Source: a virus
Virus record (IMG/VR): IMGVR_UViG_3300002835_001103
Coordinates: 1-23,676 of that record
Length of the DNA: 23,676 nt
Direction: 5' to 3' (one strand)
Positions 4,978 through 20,663 of this stretch are shown piece by piece. The notes beneath the pieces were generated by a model. It worked only from the letters and a program-made list of their open reading frames with translations, ran no database searches and was not told the origin of the DNA. The first letter of the stretch is position 1. Every line of letters starts with the position of its first letter. The position numbers and the translations under genes are program-made.

Positions 4978-6171
4978 ATGAAATTATATGAAACAAGTGA
5001 AGATTACAAACTAGTGGTATATGATTTGGAAACAATTCGTTGTTACTTTCTTGCTTTTTTTTATAATCCTGATACGGAAGAATGGTTAGAGTTTGAAATA
5101 AGCGAATATAAAAATGATTTATACGCACTTATGAAATTTTACCATTCTTCTAATATAGATTTTGCAGTAGGTTATAATAATTTAGGATTTGATGCTCAAG
5201 TATTAAATTACATTCAATCAACTCACGAACAATGGTTTAACAATACTAATTTAGAAATAACTAATCTTATATATAGTTTTGTACAAAACCTTATTGAAGG
5301 ACAGAAATATGGTATGAGATTACCATATTATGAATCTCAATTTTTAATTAAACAATTAGATTGTTTTACTATATTAGGATTAAATAATGCAGCTAGATTA
5401 TCAAGTTTAAAATCATTGCAATTTCGTTTAAAGTGGTATAATGTAGAAACAATGTCTATACATCACTCTACTGAAAATATGTCATTAGAAGACATAGAAA
5501 ACGTAAAATCTTATTGTAGAAACGATATACTTAGTACTTATGAAGTATTTAAACTAGTATTAGGTAATACTGATGATGAATTATACAAAGGTAATAATCA
5601 AATGGAGTTTAGAAACTCTATAAAAGAAGAATTTAAATTAGATTGTTTTAATTATTCTGATATTAAAATAGGAGAAGAATTAATGATTTCTGCTTATTTA
5701 GAAGATACTAAAACAAAAAGAGAGAATTTTCCTAAAAGAGGTACATTTAGAAAATACATTAAATTATCAGATTGTATTCCAGATTATTTAAAATTTAACA
5801 CAGAAGAATTATCAGAATTATTAAAAACTGTAAAACGTAGAACAATTAATCAAGATGAATCTATAGATTATAAATTTAATTTTTATGGTACTAATTATGA
5901 GTTAAAAAGTGGAGGATTACATTCTAAAAACGAAAATGAAATTTATAAATCTAATGAAGAATATGTAATATATACTTCAGATGTAGGTTCGTTTTATCCT
6001 ATTTCTAGTATTCGTAGAAAAATATTTCCTGCTCAGTTAGGAGAAAAGTTTTTAAAAACTTACGAAAAACGATATAATAAAAGAATGGAATTAAAACCAT
6101 TGTCTAAAAAAGATAAAACTATTAAAGGTATTTGTGATGGAATTAAACTTCAACTTAATATAGTTTTCGGT
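4978..6171 (+). CDS. DNA polymerase family B, exon 1 (exonuclease domain and palm start)
   Basis: This codes residues 1-398 of a 665-residue polymerase; the rest is at 7342-8145. Seen in sequence: 3'-5' exonuclease motif I YDLET (D16, E18), motif II NNLGFD (D72), motif III YCRND (Y179, D183), polymerase motif A SDVGSFYP (D335, Y340) and the first half of motif B, K390-LQLN-IVFG398. All three proofreading carboxylates are present. The unspliced frame runs seven codons into the intron (LKNIKK then TAA at 6190-6192). The exon ends in GGT, its last U being the expected splice-site base. The product copies phage DNA together with the neighbouring helicase. Confidence 0.88.
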
Positions 6172-6203
6172 TTAAAAAACATTAAAAAATAAAAAAAGAA
6201 CTA

Positions 6204-6240
6204 TTGTATTTAAAATTAGTTTATGTATATTTGTATACAT
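6204..6240 (+). promoter_or_regulatory. Bacteroidota-type promoter inside a hairpin, for the intron endonuclease
   Basis: TTG at 6204-6206, 19 bases, then TATATTTG at 6226-6233 fits the Bacteroidota -33 / -7 consensus (TTG, TAnnTTTG). Expected start of transcription is within a few bases of the endonuclease ATG at 6239, so the message would be almost leaderless. The -7 box is also the centre of a perfect inverted repeat, ATGTATA 6223-6229, loop TTTG, TATACAT 6234-6240, which includes the first two bases of the start codon. Promoter call is from sequence; regulation is inference. Confidence 0.7.
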
Positions 6241-7141
6241 GAATATAATTATTGAAAATAATAGTGTATTAGAAAAATCAGGTATTTATAAAATTAAAAA
6301 TATTGTTACTCAAAAATTTTATATAGGTTCTACTATAATGAGTTTGTATAAAAGAATGCAACATCATTATTGTTTATTAAATACAAATAAACATAAAAAC
6401 ATTCATCTTCAAAGATCTTGGAATAAGTATGGAAAAGATAATTTTCAATTTATAGCATTTGAAAATATTGAAAAAACAGAATGTTTAAATAGAGAACAAG
6501 TATTAATAGATGAAATAGGTATTGATAATTTATATAATATAAATCCTTTAGCTTCTGGTACACCAAATTTATCTAAAGAAACATTAGATAAAAGAAATAA
6601 CTCTATTAAAAAAACTAGAGAAATTTGTGTAAATTATAAAAAACAAATATTAAATAAAGAAATAACAATTGATGAAATTCCTATTAAATATTTAAAATGG
6701 ACAAGTGAATTGTTAAGATTAAATAATCGAGTAACTTGGAATAAAGGTAAAAAACAAGGAGAAATTGATTATTCGCATTTAAAAGGAGTTAAAAAAACTA
6801 TAACAGAAAAATGGCATAAAAGAACCGAAAATGCTAGAAATACAGTAATGGCTAAATCTAAAGAAATGTGGGTTTATGACATTAATTATAATTTTTTAGG
6901 ATATTGGAAAAATGCTCATGAGTTAGAAAAAGAATCTTTAAATGATGATTTTAAATTAATAAAGCATATGATATTAAGAAATCCAAAAGGAAGAAATGGA
7001 TACAGTGCTTTTGTTTTAAAATCTTTTAATACACAAAAATCAATTAGAAAAAATACAAGTTATAAAGGTTTATTTTTTAAATGTGAGCCGCTTCATCAAG
7101 AGATTGATGTTGAAAAATTGGGCAAAAACGGTGAAGACTGA
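6239..7141 (+). CDS. GIY-YIG homing endonuclease encoded in the group I intron
   Basis: 300 aa. The N-terminal GIY-YIG nuclease domain is plain: GIYKIKNIVTQKFYIGST (residues about 17-34), the Arg-containing helix YKRMQHHY, and the catalytic Glu region LNREQVLIDE. The middle is a linker (about 100-200). The C-terminal part has VYDINYNFLGYWKNAHELE, which resembles the NUMOD/intron-encoded nuclease repeat that binds DNA. It is expected to cut intronless polymerase alleles near motif B and so spread the intron. The last roughly 18 codons run through the ribozyme guide, P2 hairpin and P5 5' strand, so coding and RNA folding constrain the same bases. It has its own promoter. Confidence 0.85.
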   Translation: MNIIIENNSVLEKSGIYKIKNIVTQKFYIGSTIMSLYKRMQHHYCLLNTNKHKNIHLQRSWNKYGKDNFQFIAFENIEKTECLNREQVLIDEIGIDNLYNINPLASGTPNLSKETLDKRNNSIKKTREICVNYKKQILNKEITIDEIPIKYLKWTSELLRLNNRVTWNKGKKQGEIDYSHLKGVKKTITEKWHKRTENARNTVMAKSKEMWVYDINYNFLGYWKNAHELEKESLNDDFKLIKHMILRNPKGRNGYSAFVLKSFNTQKSIRKNTSYKGLFFKCEPLHQEIDVEKLGKNGED

Positions 7142-7341
7142 AATGTTAATACCGTGCTAAACTTAGAAACTAAAAAATCTAAGTCAGTGTAACGCATAGT
7201 GGGTGAACCTGGAAACAGAATATAAACCGCCACGAGTGCCCGACAACCTATCAGTCCGTTAGGTTGAAAATATATGCTGAGCTTATAGAAATAAAAACTA
7301 TAAGAATCAAAGGATAAAAAGCCTTTGAGATAACACAACTG

Positions 7342-8145
7342 AAAATGGGTAGTAAAGTAAGTCCTTTTTTTGATATGAAAGCTTTATATTCTATTACTAT
7401 AGGTAATGAATTTACTTTATTAAAACTTATAGAAGATTTAGAATTAAATAATTTTCATGTAATTTCAGCAAATACTGATGGTATAGAAGTATTAGTAAAA
7501 AGATCAGAAGAACAAAAATATTTAGAACTTTGTGAAGAATGGTGTAATTTAACTCAATACACGTTGGAACATGATAAATATGATTGGATTATTTATTCTA
7601 GTATAAATGATTATATTGCTAAAACTATAGAAAGTAAATATAAATTTAAAGGTGATTTTGTATCAGATGTAGAATTATATAAAAATCCATCTAAAAGAAT
7701 TATTCCTTTATCTTTACAACAATACTTTATCAATGGAGTTAAACCAGAAGATTTTATTCCTAATCATAAGGATATATTAGATTTTTGTATTAGAGGAAAA
7801 GCAAATTCTTCTACTTCATTATTTCTTAAATATGATAATGGAGAAAGTATAGATGTAGGTAGTTTAATAAGATATTATTTAACTAAAAACAAAACCGCTC
7901 CTCAATTATTTAAAATAGGTGAAGGCAGTAAAGATAATAGTATTGATGCAAATCAAAATGCGCCTAATGAATTAGGAATTCAAAGAGTAAAACTATTTAA
8001 TAAAATAGTTGACGGACCGTATAATATTGATTATGAACAATATATATATCAGACTTATAAAATCATAGCAAAAATAGAAAAAAACAAAAAAGATTTGAAT
8101 TATGTAGATTCAATCTTAAACAAAGATCAATTTAAATTATTTTAA
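7342..8145 (+). CDS. DNA polymerase family B, exon 2 (palm and thumb)
   Basis: This codes residues 399-665 and continues exon 1 in frame as KMGSKVSPFFDMKALYS, completing motif B. Motif C is ISANTDGIEV (N442, T443, D444): the first Asp of the usual DTD is Asn and the second is kept. Later come KFKGDF (about residue 490), typical of family B thumb/palm 'KxKG' like segments, and a C-terminal region to Phe665. An ATG at 7345 could in principle start a separate peptide, but the exon makes sense only as a continuation of 4978-6171. Total length is like short phage family B polymerases. Confidence 0.87.
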   Translation, partial: KMGSKVSPFFDMKALYSITIGNEFTLLKLIEDLELNNFHVISANTDGIEVLVKRSEEQKYLELCEEWCNLTQYTLEHDKYDWIIYSSINDYIAKTIESKYKFKGDFVSDVELYKNPSKRIIPLSLQQYFINGVKPEDFIPNHKDILDFCIRGKANSSTSLFLKYDNGESIDVGSLIRYYLTKNKTAPQLFKIGEGSKDNSIDANQNAPNELGIQRVKLFNKIVDGPYNIDYEQYIYQTYKIIAKIEKNKKDLNYVDSILNKDQFKLF

Positions 8146-11315: not shown

Positions 11316-11987
11316 ATGAACAATAAAAAAAGAATAGGAATTCCTGGTTGGTTAATAGATGGTAAATGTTTTGGAGTAACATTACCTTATATTAATTATA
11401 TATCAAAATTTGGAATCCCAATAATTATTACTCCCAATCAAGTAAATGATTTACCAGAAATAGATTTATTATATTTACCAGGAGGATTAGATGTAAATCC
11501 TTTAAATTATAATGAAATGCCTGGTTATTATACTCAAAACCCAAATGTTATGTTGGAATATTTCGATAAACACATTCTTCCTAAATATATAGAAAATAAT
11601 ACGTCTATATTCGCTGTATGCAGAGGTGCTCAATCGTTGTTTACTATGTATGGAGGAACTTTAATACAAGATTTTAAAGAACATAAACAAAGTGGTTATC
11701 CTACAGATCAATGTCATTTAATTAGACCTAAAAATCCTGCTTTATATACAGAATATAATAAATTATTTAGTAAATTAAAAGTAAATAGTAGACATCATCA
11801 AATGATGATAGATGACGAAAAAAGCAATGAAATAGATGTTATTGCTGTAGCTGAGGATTTTAAAGACATTGTAGAAGTTTGGAAACATAAAACTAAGAAC
11901 ATTTGGGGTGTTCAATATCATCCAGAAGACCATGGAATTAATGATGAATTTTCCCCTTTTGTTATAAATAATTTGTTAAATAAATAA
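11316..11987 (+). CDS. Class I glutamine-amidotransferase-like hydrolase (peptidase C26 / PuuD type), copy 1
   Basis: 223 aa from the ATG at 11316, one base after the previous stop; a GTG at 11292 would overlap that gene and is less likely. The triad is clear: nucleophile elbow AVCRGAQ with C102, and VQYHPED with H202 and E204; LPGG near residue 54-57 and YGGTLIQ also fit the family. Relatives cleave gamma-glutamyl bonds (for example gamma-glutamyl-GABA hydrolase). A paralogue, split by an intron, is at 19051-20663 within the amidoligase cluster, so this copy is likely part of the same chemistry although it sits 3.4 kb away. Confidence 0.85.
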   Translation: MNNKKRIGIPGWLIDGKCFGVTLPYINYISKFGIPIIITPNQVNDLPEIDLLYLPGGLDVNPLNYNEMPGYYTQNPNVMLEYFDKHILPKYIENNTSIFAVCRGAQSLFTMYGGTLIQDFKEHKQSGYPTDQCHLIRPKNPALYTEYNKLFSKLKVNSRHHQMMIDDEKSNEIDVIAVAEDFKDIVEVWKHKTKNIWGVQYHPEDHGINDEFSPFVINNLLNK

Positions 11988-12003
11988 AAAAATAGTATAT
12001 TTG
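11973..12003 (+). promoter_or_regulatory. Bacteroidota-type promoter before the ATPase/SSB pair
   Basis: TTG at 11973-11975 (TTTG from 11972), 20 bases, then TATATTTG at 11996-12003, matching TTG / TAnnTTTG. The next ATG is only 5 bases after the -7 box, so the transcript should be leaderless or nearly so. It starts the 12008-13658 unit, which is closed by the terminator at 13681. Confidence 0.7.
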
Positions 12004-12007
12004 TAGT

Positions 12008-12679
12008 ATGGAAAAAGAAAGGAATTATTACGCTAAAGTGGCGATAGTTGGTCAATCTGGTACAGGGAAATCTTATTTAAGTAAAACTGCTGATAAAGAA
12101 ACAACAGGTTTAATTAATGTAGAAAGAAAACCTTTACCTTATAAATCAATGCCTCTTTTTAAATTTGAAGGTAGACCTAAAACATGGGTAGCATTTATTA
12201 AAAATTTAAATGATTATATTAATAACCCAGAAGTTAAATCAATTATTATTGATTCTCAAACAATGGCTTTAAATATATTGCACAATGAAATGGGTAAAAC
12301 TTTTACTGGATATGATATTTATAAAAACTTTAATAAAGCTGTTTATGATTATTTAGAAACATTAAAGAATGCAGAAAAAGACATTATTGTTTTATCACAT
12401 GATGAAATTTTACCAATAGAAGGAGAAAAAGTAAAGAGAATGGCTGTTCACGGAAAAGAATATGAAGGTAAAATAGAACAGCACTATAGTATAGTTCTTT
12501 ATACAGGAACTAGACTAAAAGAAGGTAGTCCTGAATATTTTTTAAAGACTTTTGAGCCTGGTACATCAACTAAAGTACCAGAAGGTTTATTTCCAGATAA
12601 AAATGGAATAACTTTAAAAGAAATTAAAAATGACAGTGGTTACATATTTGAAGAATTAAAAAATTATTACAGTAAATAA
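12008..12679 (+). CDS. P-loop ATPase, AAA_24 / Sak4-like recombination protein
   Basis: 223 aa with a RecA-like core: Walker A GQSGTGKS at 15-22 (K21), Walker B SIIIDSQ with D82 and a Ser/His sensor region (IIVLSHDEI). Phage proteins of this build (Sak4-like, related to RecA/Rad51) assist single-strand annealing or strand exchange and are often next to an SSB gene, as here (1-base gap to 12681). The C-terminal part KLDGSPEYF-like region to ELKNYYSK is typical of the AAA_24 group. Function as a recombinase or replication accessory is inference from context; the ATPase fold is direct. Promoter immediately upstream. Confidence 0.75.
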   Translation: MEKERNYYAKVAIVGQSGTGKSYLSKTADKETTGLINVERKPLPYKSMPLFKFEGRPKTWVAFIKNLNDYINNPEVKSIIIDSQTMALNILHNEMGKTFTGYDIYKNFNKAVYDYLETLKNAEKDIIVLSHDEILPIEGEKVKRMAVHGKEYEGKIEQHYSIVLYTGTRLKEGSPEYFLKTFEPGTSTKVPEGLFPDKNGITLKEIKNDSGYIFEELKNYYSK

Positions 12680-13680: not shown

Positions 13681-13710
13681 AAAGGGAAGTAGAAATACTT
13701 CCCTTTTTTT
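13681..13710 (+). terminator. Intrinsic transcription terminator
   Basis: A perfect 11-base stem AAAGGGAAGTA (13681-13691), loop GAAA, TACTTCCCTTT (13696-13706), running into a T tract to 13710. This is 23 bases after the SSB-like gene and before the primase gene, so it closes the 12008-13658 unit. It is the only strong rho-independent terminator I see in the window. Confidence 0.93.
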
Positions 13711-18437: not shown

Positions 18438-19078
18438 ATGATTATAAAGAAGATAATTATTTTGATCATACTTTAAGATACGAAATAATTTATAGTACTT
18501 ATAATAAAGATAATGTTAATTTAAAAAGTTCTAACAAAACAGAATCTTGTTATAGTAATATAAGATATGATGATTTCGAATATATTATAATTACTATACC
18601 TGAAAGTTGTATTTATAATCTTAATTTTATAAAAAGATATGTTAAAATAGTTAATTCAATAACTAAAAACATAGATTTAAAAATTACAGATTATAATATT
18701 AAAATTTATAAAAAGAATGATTTTAATTTATTATTATGTACTTTAACATTACTTAGATACTTATGGGAAAATAATAATGACAACTTTAGATTAATTCCTT
18801 ATTGGGTAGTATTTATAAATAAATATAATCCTGAATTAACTATAATGGAAAATTTGTGTATTTCACATTTTAATCATATTCATAGATTTTCTCATTCTGG
18901 ACATTCAATAATGTCAAGAAAATCAAAATTAAAAGATAGTTTTGAATTATCTTATAATGGAGTACATTCTAGTTTTATGTCAAAAGATTATAACGAATTA
19001 CGATTAACAAAATTTAAAAACAAAGAAGAATTAAAAATAACAATCCAACAATGGAATCAATTAAAACAAAAACAATAG
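18407..19078 (+). CDS. Hypothetical protein B of amidoligase cluster, 223 aa
   Basis: Not recognised. The start at 18407 is the only ATG near the 5' end of this frame and overlaps the ATP-grasp gene by 31 bases. The middle (about residues 110-165) reads TLLRYLWENNNDNFRLI, NKYNPE and ISHFNHIHRFSHSGHSIM, similar by eye to protein A. The C-terminus (YNELRLTKFKNKEELKITI) faintly recalls the C-terminal strand-helix of amidoligases. It ends at TAG, showing that TAG is a stop in this phage. Overlaps the next gene by 28 bases. Confidence 0.7.
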   Translation: MERKPIISRLNDYKEDNYFDHTLRYEIIYSTYNKDNVNLKSSNKTESCYSNIRYDDFEYIIITIPESCIYNLNFIKRYVKIVNSITKNIDLKITDYNIKIYKKNDFNLLLCTLTLLRYLWENNNDNFRLIPYWVVFINKYNPELTIMENLCISHFNHIHRFSHSGHSIMSRKSKLKDSFELSYNGVHSSFMSKDYNELRLTKFKNKEELKITIQQWNQLKQKQ

Positions 19079-19306
19079 GTGGAGATTTAAGCTATATGGC
19101 TTGGATACCTAATGCAATAGAAGTTGCAACAATAGAAGAAGCAGATTTAGTTATATTTACTGGAGGTGAAGATGTTTGTCCTGAATTATACGGACATCCT
19201 ACTCACGAAACTACTCATTATAATAAAACAAGAGATTTAAAAGAAGTAGAAGCTTTTTTAAATACAATAGCTTTAAACAAGCCTATCCTAGGTATTTGTA
19301 GAGGAT
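19051..19306 (+). CDS. Class I glutamine-amidotransferase-like hydrolase, copy 2, exon 1
   Basis: Residues 1-85 plus the first base of codon 86. GGDLSYMAWIP is followed by LVIFTGGEDV and the nucleophile elbow GICRG (C83). The reading frame hits TGA at 19315 in the intron. Joined to 20299-20663 the codon TCT (Ser86) forms and the product continues GICRGSQFICAMAGGTLIQ, a complete elbow. Total length 206 aa, close to copy 1 (223). The ATG at 19051 overlaps the upstream gene by 28 bases. Confidence 0.83.
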
Positions 19307-19420
19307 TAAATAATTGATGGTCCTCTTTAAACGGGGTGAATTCATGGAACGCTGAAATGCCAATCATGAGCTAAGCTTAGAGAGAAATCTCTTTGAAAGT
19401 GCAACGACTAGGAGTCGAGA

Positions 19421-20152
19421 CTAAGTTTCTTCATACAATTTTGTATCAGGAAATACGTCAGTAATACTCCCAAGAGCGCCCTGATTTTTTAAACAACTTA
19501 ATAATTTTAAAATATTTATAGAAAAGAGTTCTAGCTGCTCAAAATTAGCTTGATTTTTCATAGCATTTGCTAATCTAGACATAACTAAAACATTACCTTT
19601 AATGTATCCTTTGTTATTGTCTAATCTATCTAATGAAGCATGTGAAAAATGATTACCGTTCGATTGAGAACCAAAAGTAAGTTTTATTCCTAATAAAGGA
19701 CAATGAGTAGGTAATTCAAAATCATTATAATTTAAATTAAAGAAAATATTTCTTCTTTTAGATGTAAATTTTGAATTTCTTATCATATATCCTTTAATTC
19801 TATCACTTTCTGATATGTAAGTATTTTCATACATTTTTGGTTCTAAATTATAAAAATATCTTAATTGTGTAACAATATGTTTAGAAAGTTTAAATCTATT
19901 AAATAATTTATGATTTTTTAATAAATTTAAGCATTCTGTATTAGAGTTAGAATTAAACATTGTTATAAATTCTTCTTTAAATTCAGGAAATTTAACAAGT
20001 TTTTCTATAACTTTATAATTTGGCATATAATTTTGAATTCTAATAGCGCTTATAGTAGAAGTTGCTATTTTTAATTCTTTTGATATTTCACGAAGGGTTA
20101 ACCCTTTTCTAGTTAAATATATTATTTGTTCTTTTAAATCTTTTATTTCCAT
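19421..20152 (-). CDS. HNH-type homing endonuclease, antisense inside the group I intron
   Basis: 243 aa on the minus strand. The N-terminus has a helix-turn-helix-like element (KGLTLREISKELKIATSTISAI). The C-terminal half has the HNH-like nuclease core of phage homing endonucleases: CPLLGIKLTF, a His (HFSHAS), then SLDRLDNNKGYIKGNVLVMS and RLANAMKNQ. The stop codon lies inside the P7 strand of the ribozyme. It is expected to cut intronless copies of the amidotransferase gene. Opposite orientation is unusual for a phage intron endonuclease. It has its own promoter. Confidence 0.8.
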   Translation of the reverse strand: MEIKDLKEQIIYLTRKGLTLREISKELKIATSTISAIRIQNYMPNYKVIEKLVKFPEFKEEFITMFNSNSNTECLNLLKNHKLFNRFKLSKHIVTQLRYFYNLEPKMYENTYISESDRIKGYMIRNSKFTSKRRNIFFNLNYNDFELPTHCPLLGIKLTFGSQSNGNHFSHASLDRLDNNKGYIKGNVLVMSRLANAMKNQANFEQLELFSINILKLLSCLKNQGALGSITDVFPDTKLYEET

Positions 20153-20177
20153 AACTGGGGATTTGTTTAATTGATTA

Positions 20178-20207
20178 CAAATATATATAATTTACAAAAA
20201 ATTACAA
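20178..20207 (-). promoter_or_regulatory. Bacteroidota-type promoter for the antisense endonuclease
   Basis: On the minus strand TTG (20207-20205), 19 bases, then TATATTTG (20185-20178), the same spacing as at 6204-6233. The start codon follows 25 bases after the -7 box, leaving a short leader. No minus-strand terminator is visible beyond the gene, so transcripts may run on antisense to exon 1. Confidence 0.65.
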
Positions 20208-20298
20208 TAGTTGGTTTAAAAAATATGATATAGTCTGAACTTACACAAAGTCGAAGTGTAAGAAGTAAAAGATAAAGAACTTTTACGATAACAAAATG

Positions 20299-20663
20299 CT
20301 CAATTTATATGCGCTATGGCTGGAGGCACATTGATTCAACATCAATCTCATCCAGCTATGCATTCTATTACTACTAATGATGGTAAAAAAATATTAGTTA
20401 ATAGTACTCATCATCAAAGACAATGTTTAAAACATCTTTTACCAGACGAATATAACTTATTAGCTTGGGCTCAAGCTTTAAGTCCTTATTCTTATGAAGG
20501 AGATAATAATAATAATTTTGAAGAAAAAGAAGTAGAAGTATGTTATTATAATAAAATAAATGCTTTAGCTATACAATTTCATCCAGAAATGTTTCATTGT
20601 CCGTTGCAAGGAAAAGAATATGCTTTAAACTTAGTAAACAAATTATTAAAAAAAGAATTATAA
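20299..20663 (+). CDS. Class I glutamine-amidotransferase-like hydrolase, copy 2, exon 2
   Basis: Completes the protein begun at 19051: CT joins the T of exon 1, then QFICAMAGGTLIQHQ. The His-Glu of the triad lies in AIQFHPEMF (H180, E182 of the joined protein). AGGTLIQ aligns with YGGTLIQ of copy 1. An ATG at 20316 might be read as a separate start but would lack the nucleophile. The gene ends 3 bases before the NTN-hydrolase gene. Role: predicted to cleave a gamma-glutamyl or similar amide in the amidoligase pathway. Confidence 0.83.

Follow-up and report, generated by a model that had tools for sequence, protein, structure and literature searches.

The DNA analysed here, which we refer to as the window, comprises the 23,676 bases of a virus record with a GC content of 23.9% and belongs to a phage carrying replication genes. 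By protein comparison, its closest named relatives are all distant and mixed, leaning to crAss-like or Bacteroidota phages: Maribacter phage Panino is the nearest for the DNA polymerase, cr108_1 for a COOH-NH2 ligase, and a Leptolyngbya phage, followed by Cellulophaga phi38:1, for a phosphatase. A Shine-Dalgarno sequence precedes 1 of 31 gene starts, which equals the background level, and an A occupies position -3 in 24 of 32. The lack of a Shine-Dalgarno sequence and an A at -3 have both been described for Bacteroidota (PMC6847099). On the basis of these start features and the leaning of the relatives, Bacteroidota is the probable host phylum.

Within the window, a group I-type intron interrupts a family-B DNA polymerase gene and in turn houses a GIY-YIG homing endonuclease gene. 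The features of this locus are compiled in Table 1.

Table 1 Position of the exons, intron elements, hairpin arms and promoter elements at the polymerase locus of the window
Feature	Position	Strand	Support or remark
5' exon, family-B DNA polymerase gene	4978-6171	+	PHROG 1252 DNA polymerase, E 8e-62
P1 5' strand CGGU/UU (last four bases of exon 1 and first two of the intron)	6168-6173	+	pairs with 7085-7090
Group I-type intron	6172-7341	+	reading frame restored by excision; P1 U.G; compensatory core pairs
P1 extension, 5' strand	6179-6193	+	pairs with 7069-7084
Hairpin 5' arm	6200-6229	+	sampled pairs with probability 0.6-1.0 in whole-intron fold
-33-like element TTG, 19 bases 5' of the -7 box	6204-6206	+	match to Bacteroidota consensus
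-7-like element TATATTTG	6226-6233	+	predicted +1 at 6238/6239, leaderless
Hairpin 3' arm, with ATG and first nine codons	6234-6265	+	folding
GIY-YIG homing endonuclease ORF, 300 aa, in P1 loop	6239-7141	+	PF01541, E 2e-7; PHROG homing endonuclease
Internal guide sequence GAGCCG, inside the endonuclease ORF	7085-7090	+	pairs with 6168-6173
3' exon, DNA polymerase gene	7342-8145	+	PHROG 1252, E 5e-52

Excision of the intron joins FG to KMGSK in frame and without a break, yielding a 665-aa polymerase. The element displays the hallmarks of group I introns, namely a U.G pair at the 5' splice site in P1 (U6171.G7087, with P1 and its U.G present in four orthologues), the P3-P8 topology and a terminal G in a 3' end reading CTG, as in related introns. 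In an alignment of seven sequences, 27 of the 49 predicted core pairs showed two-sided compensatory changes. The invariant P7 (GCAUA/UAUGC) was taken from this alignment, as a pseudoknot-free fold does not predict it. The P1 extension cofolds at -14.3 kcal/mol, compared to a mean of -5.6 and a best value of -14.0 kcal/mol among 300 control placements, and its 5' strand contains a UAA stop codon (6190-6192) that terminates translation of unspliced exon 1. The Rfam group I intron model matched neither the window nor five relatives (L042, L160, L092, L032 and L031), so the model appears to miss this whole subfamily. The core (7086-7341) aligns at 68-73% identity with introns of Clostridioides difficile phages and a bajarodcaudo virus. 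These introns occupy other insertion sites, and the likeness is confined to the ribozyme core, excluding the leader and the endonuclease of the window. For 7110-7341 the identity to the C. difficile phage introns (L032 and L031 compared) is about 73%, which is a surprising closeness across host phyla. An IStron, which combines a group I intron with an IS605-type transposase, was considered and rejected, as the only sense ORF of at least 60 aa within 6172-7341 is the GIY-YIG gene, with no transposase or TnpB.

Three further structures of the window are recorded here as separate observations. The strongest RNA fold of the entire window lies in DNA polymerase exon 1 (5076-5156; z about -8, -24 kcal/mol), where the opposite strand also folds strongly. 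A hairpin formed by AGGGAAGT and ACTTCCCT (13683-13704) lies in the gap between the end of one gene (13658) and the beginning of the primase gene (13722); it could be a terminator or a processing site. Finally, a second group I-type intron (19314-20300) interrupts a peptidase C26-like gene, whose two parts lie at 19051-19313 and about 20300-20663.

The intronic ORF lies in sense orientation within the group I intron, and its product is predicted to be a GIY-YIG homing endonuclease, with the GIY/GVY and YIG motifs as well as R39, E86 and N100 kept across the orthologues. Its last 19 codons or so overlap the guide sequence, P2, P3 and P4-P5, and this overlap with guide sequence and core is present in all four orthologues. 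As the ORF runs into the ribozyme core, barring ribosomes from the unspliced RNA should protect splicing.

The original prediction for this locus centered on a perfect inverted repeat at the endonuclease start. The repeat (arms ATGTATA and TATACAT, loop TTTG) is exact at 6223-6240; position 6241, which had been counted as part of it, holds just the final G of the ATG. As stated there, the -7-like box lies within the repeat, and so do the first two bases (A and T) of the start codon (6239-6241). The 5' arm of the repeat also contains an out-of-frame AUG that opens a 10-codon ORF (MYICIHEYNY, 6223-6252) overlapping the endonuclease start. By itself, this 18-nt repeat is at chance level: perfect 7-bp inverted repeats whose loops measure 3-8 nt number 48 in the window, where dinucleotide shuffles average 43; a repeat of this kind turns up in 15% of shuffles of the local 60 nt, and the 18 nt alone fold at only -3.1 kcal/mol.

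The repeat is, however, the tip of a longer imperfect palindrome (6200-6229 and 6234-6265) that had been missed earlier. The resulting hairpin spans 66 nt with 29 bp and folds at -19.1 kcal/mol (z -4.9; none of 200 shuffles as stable), or at -26 kcal/mol at 25 °C, which removes the earlier worry about a weak AU-rich stem. About 1.4% of folding windows reach a similar z. The hairpin is compatible with the extended P1 and sits directly inside it, and a scan for an intrinsic terminator at the hairpin found none. Opening the endonuclease start requires 11.5 kcal/mol, making it the least accessible of the 32 gene starts in the window; one other start requires 10.0 kcal/mol and the remainder 0.2-5.0 kcal/mol. 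Among AT-rich control starts, 2-3% are equally hard to open. When only the leader was shuffled and the coding part was kept, none of 1000 sequences was as stable and 0.6% were as hard to open. Removal of the five basal pairs led to an alternative fold in which the leader is still paired and the AUG is unpaired. These results suggest that, in read-through RNA, a stable hairpin covers the translation start.

The 5' arm of this hairpin also carries putative promoter elements. The Bacteroidota promoter consensus is TTTG / TAHHTTTG (also given as TAnnTTTG), with the G at -5 (PMC6847099), and TTG-N19-TATATTTG (6204-6233) fits this consensus of the probable host phylum. A putative Bacteroidota sigma-A-type promoter at this site would give an RNA whose 5' end coincides with the ATG or precedes it by a single base; judging by the sequence match, this RNA would lack the 5' arm. 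Leaderless mRNAs make up 5.5% of the mapped mRNAs in Flavobacterium psychrophilum (PMC9723704). A search for an E. coli-type sigma-70 promoter near the endonuclease start returned matches at shuffle level only. Elsewhere in the window, the gene starting at 12008 is preceded by TTTG-N20-TATATTTG (11972-12008), with the box 12 bp before the ATG and the predicted +1 at the A of the ATG, which marks a further putative promoter of the leaderless type in the phage.

The proposal that read-through RNA hides the start and an internal RNA frees it agrees with folding of both RNAs. With the 5' end placed at 6238/6239, the predicted cost of opening the start drops to 2.0 kcal/mol, compared to the 11.5 kcal/mol in read-through RNA. 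From the sequence, the anatomy of the intron and the folding statistics, we infer repression, promoter activity and an effect on splicing as follows. In read-through RNA that starts at the polymerase promoter, the leader would fold onto the first codons and lock the start; ribosomes would then be kept out of the intron, leaving P1, P3-P5 and splicing undisturbed. The sigma-A-type promoter, with both elements within the 5' arm, would give rise to a separate RNA starting at the ATG or one base upstream, in which no hairpin is possible. This RNA would be translated leaderless, providing endonuclease without blocking the splicing of read-through RNA. Taken together, the locus probably operates as such a two-way expression switch, in which splicing is protected by the block on read-through RNA.

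A corresponding arrangement has been worked out for I-TevI, the GIY-YIG endonuclease encoded in the td intron of phage T4, which is controlled by a hairpin and a late promoter as well as by an operator, and where td splicing suffers when the hairpin is lost, an effect attributed to ribosomes entering the intron core (PMC2988022). When the I-TevI start was run through the same script as a positive control, it required 13.4 kcal/mol to open, in keeping with the resemblance that had been proposed. Of its neighbours, 10 of 11 T4 starts required 0.4-6.1 kcal/mol; the values for denA and mobE were 16.6 and 5.7 kcal/mol, respectively. Both systems have a sense GIY-YIG gene within a group I intron, a 3' end of the ORF that overlaps the ribozyme core, a hairpin that hides the translation start in read-through RNA, and a promoter RNA without the 5' arm, the latter two being predictions for the window. 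In contrast to I-TevI, the window ORF is located in the P1 loop, the hidden element consists of the AUG and codons 1-9 instead of a Shine-Dalgarno sequence, the promoter is of the Bacteroidota sigma-A type and not a T4 late promoter, the predicted RNA is leaderless, and no homing-site-like operator was found in the window. I-TevII, I-TevIII, segB and Aeh1 mobE (PMC2988022) are alike in having a hairpin in the start region and a local promoter, but they represent other nuclease families and locations (mobE and segB are free-standing) in T-even phages with Shine-Dalgarno sequences. The locus most likely works like the I-TevI control, with three defining details that differ: no Shine-Dalgarno sequence, no recognisable operator and another promoter class. 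Overall, the predictions make it likely that I-TevI-like control exists here in a leaderless, Shine-Dalgarno-free form.

We then compared the intron with its relatives. The only other copy of it that was found is on a contig 99.96% identical over 7 kb, which is uninformative on covariation in the hairpin, and a pattern scan of viral contigs for the exact palindrome (TTATGTATANNNNTATACATGAA) retrieved only this near-identical contig and three unrelated coding matches. Three further distinct introns occupy the same polymerase site: L119 (with copies L040, L067 and L131), L042 and L160. They have P1, the guide sequence (its equivalent being CAGCCG) and the insertion site in common with the window, and their endonucleases are homologous with the same start, though distant at about 42-47% identity. 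As to whether relatives that keep the intron have lost the repeat, a point raised in the original prediction, the answer is divided: all three retain TTTG-N19-TAAGTTT(G/A), with imperfect -7 boxes (TAAGTTTG/TAAGTTTA), as well as a 7-bp repeat directly beside the ATG; strong start-hiding is absent, however, as their starts open at 4-6 kcal/mol, no better than with shuffled leaders. Their predicted RNAs carry a leader of 11-13 nt in contrast to the leaderless RNA predicted for the window. Because the strong hairpin is not conserved in the intron family, our confidence in the switch is lowered.

A survey of gene starts was performed at loci fetched by similarity to the intron core or the endonuclease; it covered 270 homing endonuclease starts and 1,783 other gene starts, with ORF starts called mechanically, classes assigned by home-made profiles and at least one presumed control (L371) that resembles a GIY-YIG gene. 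In the first set, a strict promoter was present upstream of 13 of 132 endonuclease starts compared to 12 of 1258 other starts (p 6e-8), and in the second set upstream of 10 of 142 compared to 5 of 505 (p 2e-4), so that the enrichment was clearly replicated; combined, the numbers were 22/270 and 18/1783. The thresholds for starts that are hidden in read-through RNA and freed in promoter RNA had been chosen with the results of the first set at hand; the second one (160 loci) served as replication with unchanged thresholds and yielded small counts (endonuclease versus other, 4 versus 0 with strict and 4 versus 2 with loose promoters). In the combined sets, a promoter together with a hidden and freed start occurred at 9 endonuclease and 2 other starts (p 5e-7); among the strict cases, these were largely other endonuclease families (Pfam NUMOD4/HNH_3 and LAGLIDADG_3). 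When only promoter-bearing starts were considered, hidden starts as counted by threshold were only marginally commoner in homing endonuclease genes (p 0.07 strict, 0.02 loose), and the z score against shuffled leaders was 0.62 for endonuclease compared to -0.16 for other starts (p 0.002). In a GC-matched comparison, the opening energies of endonuclease starts exceeded those of other starts across all GC bins (p 8e-3 to 2e-6).

The predicted +1 lay within 2 nt of the ATG at 11 of 39 promoter-bearing homing endonuclease starts (L233, L259, L273, L288, L321, L336, L352, L364, L376, L177 and the window). Counted per start, this leaderless type was found at 11 of 270 endonuclease and 9 of 1783 other starts (p 9e-6); among promoter-bearing starts alone, the difference between endonuclease and other genes was not significant (p 0.12). 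The best start-hiding hairpin with a TATATTTG promoter in the whole survey belongs to a second GIY-YIG gene of different sequence (L119b), which is encoded on the minus strand of L119 (ORF 1212-1868 of the reverse complement; also in L131) just upstream of the polymerase intron. Here, the predicted opening cost falls from 14.9 to 0.3 kcal/mol (p 0.001).

The second intron of the window contains an HNH/HTH-like ORF (19421-20152) on the minus strand, antisense to its host gene. A separate TTG..TATATTTG promoter precedes this ORF, but no start-hiding fold was found there (opening 4.1 kcal/mol). This single antisense case, the window's own, fits the notion that hiding is needed only where RNA of the host gene reads through the ORF.

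An explanation that competes with the switch is that an intron loop which is AT-rich and evolves fast has produced the hairpin as a by-product, and that the endonuclease is made at a low level from unspliced RNA or a weak promoter, no hairpin switch being involved. The chance level of the short repeat, the absence of strong start-hiding from the orthologous introns and the presence of other strong folds in the window are all in line with such an origin. Nevertheless, we consider it unlikely: the leader shuffles (p 0.006 for opening, 0/1000 for energy) argue against it, the hairpin coincides with a promoter whose predicted RNA begins exactly at the ATG, and similar coincidences of promoter and hairpin are over-represented in homing endonuclease genes.

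The palindrome might also act on DNA, serving as an operator: bound by the endonuclease or by some other protein, it would shut down the internal promoter, in the manner of I-TevI and in line with the suggestion made in the original prediction. The overlap of the repeat with the -7 box would suit this role, but operators in T4 are similar to the homing site (15/20 for I-TevI), whereas here the leader matches the homing site at no more than 13-14 positions over 20 bases, the level of shuffles; autorepression is therefore unsupported, and we regard an operator as quite improbable. Equally improbable is that the hairpin serves as an RNA processing or stability element, or as a P1-loop spacer that protects ribozyme folding, with an incidental start overlap, since its position directly inside the compatible extended P1 (6179-6193/7069-7084) would accommodate such a function but leaves unexplained both the promoter in the 5' arm and the wider tendency of homing endonuclease starts to be hard to open.

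As a tentative extension of the two-way switch, which we hold to be possible but rather doubtful, the sigma-A promoter of intron endonucleases in Bacteroidota phages would double as an anti-start element, with the -33 and -7 elements in the 5' arm and the ATG in the 3' arm, so that every read-through RNA is self-repressed and every promoter RNA is free. Genes of the GIY-YIG, NUMOD4-HNH and LAGLIDADG kinds would have acquired such an arrangement on repeated occasions, frequently in leaderless form.

How a self-splicing intron is kept free of ribosomes while its gene is still expressed has, in the literature searched, been worked out mainly in T-even phages. If the same holds true in Bacteroidota phages, with another sigma factor, no Shine-Dalgarno sequence and leaderless RNA, this would represent a convergent regulatory circuit around mobile introns. 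It would also yield a sequence rule, with the promoter placed in the 5' arm and the ATG in the 3' one, by which crAss-like phages and their relatives can be screened.
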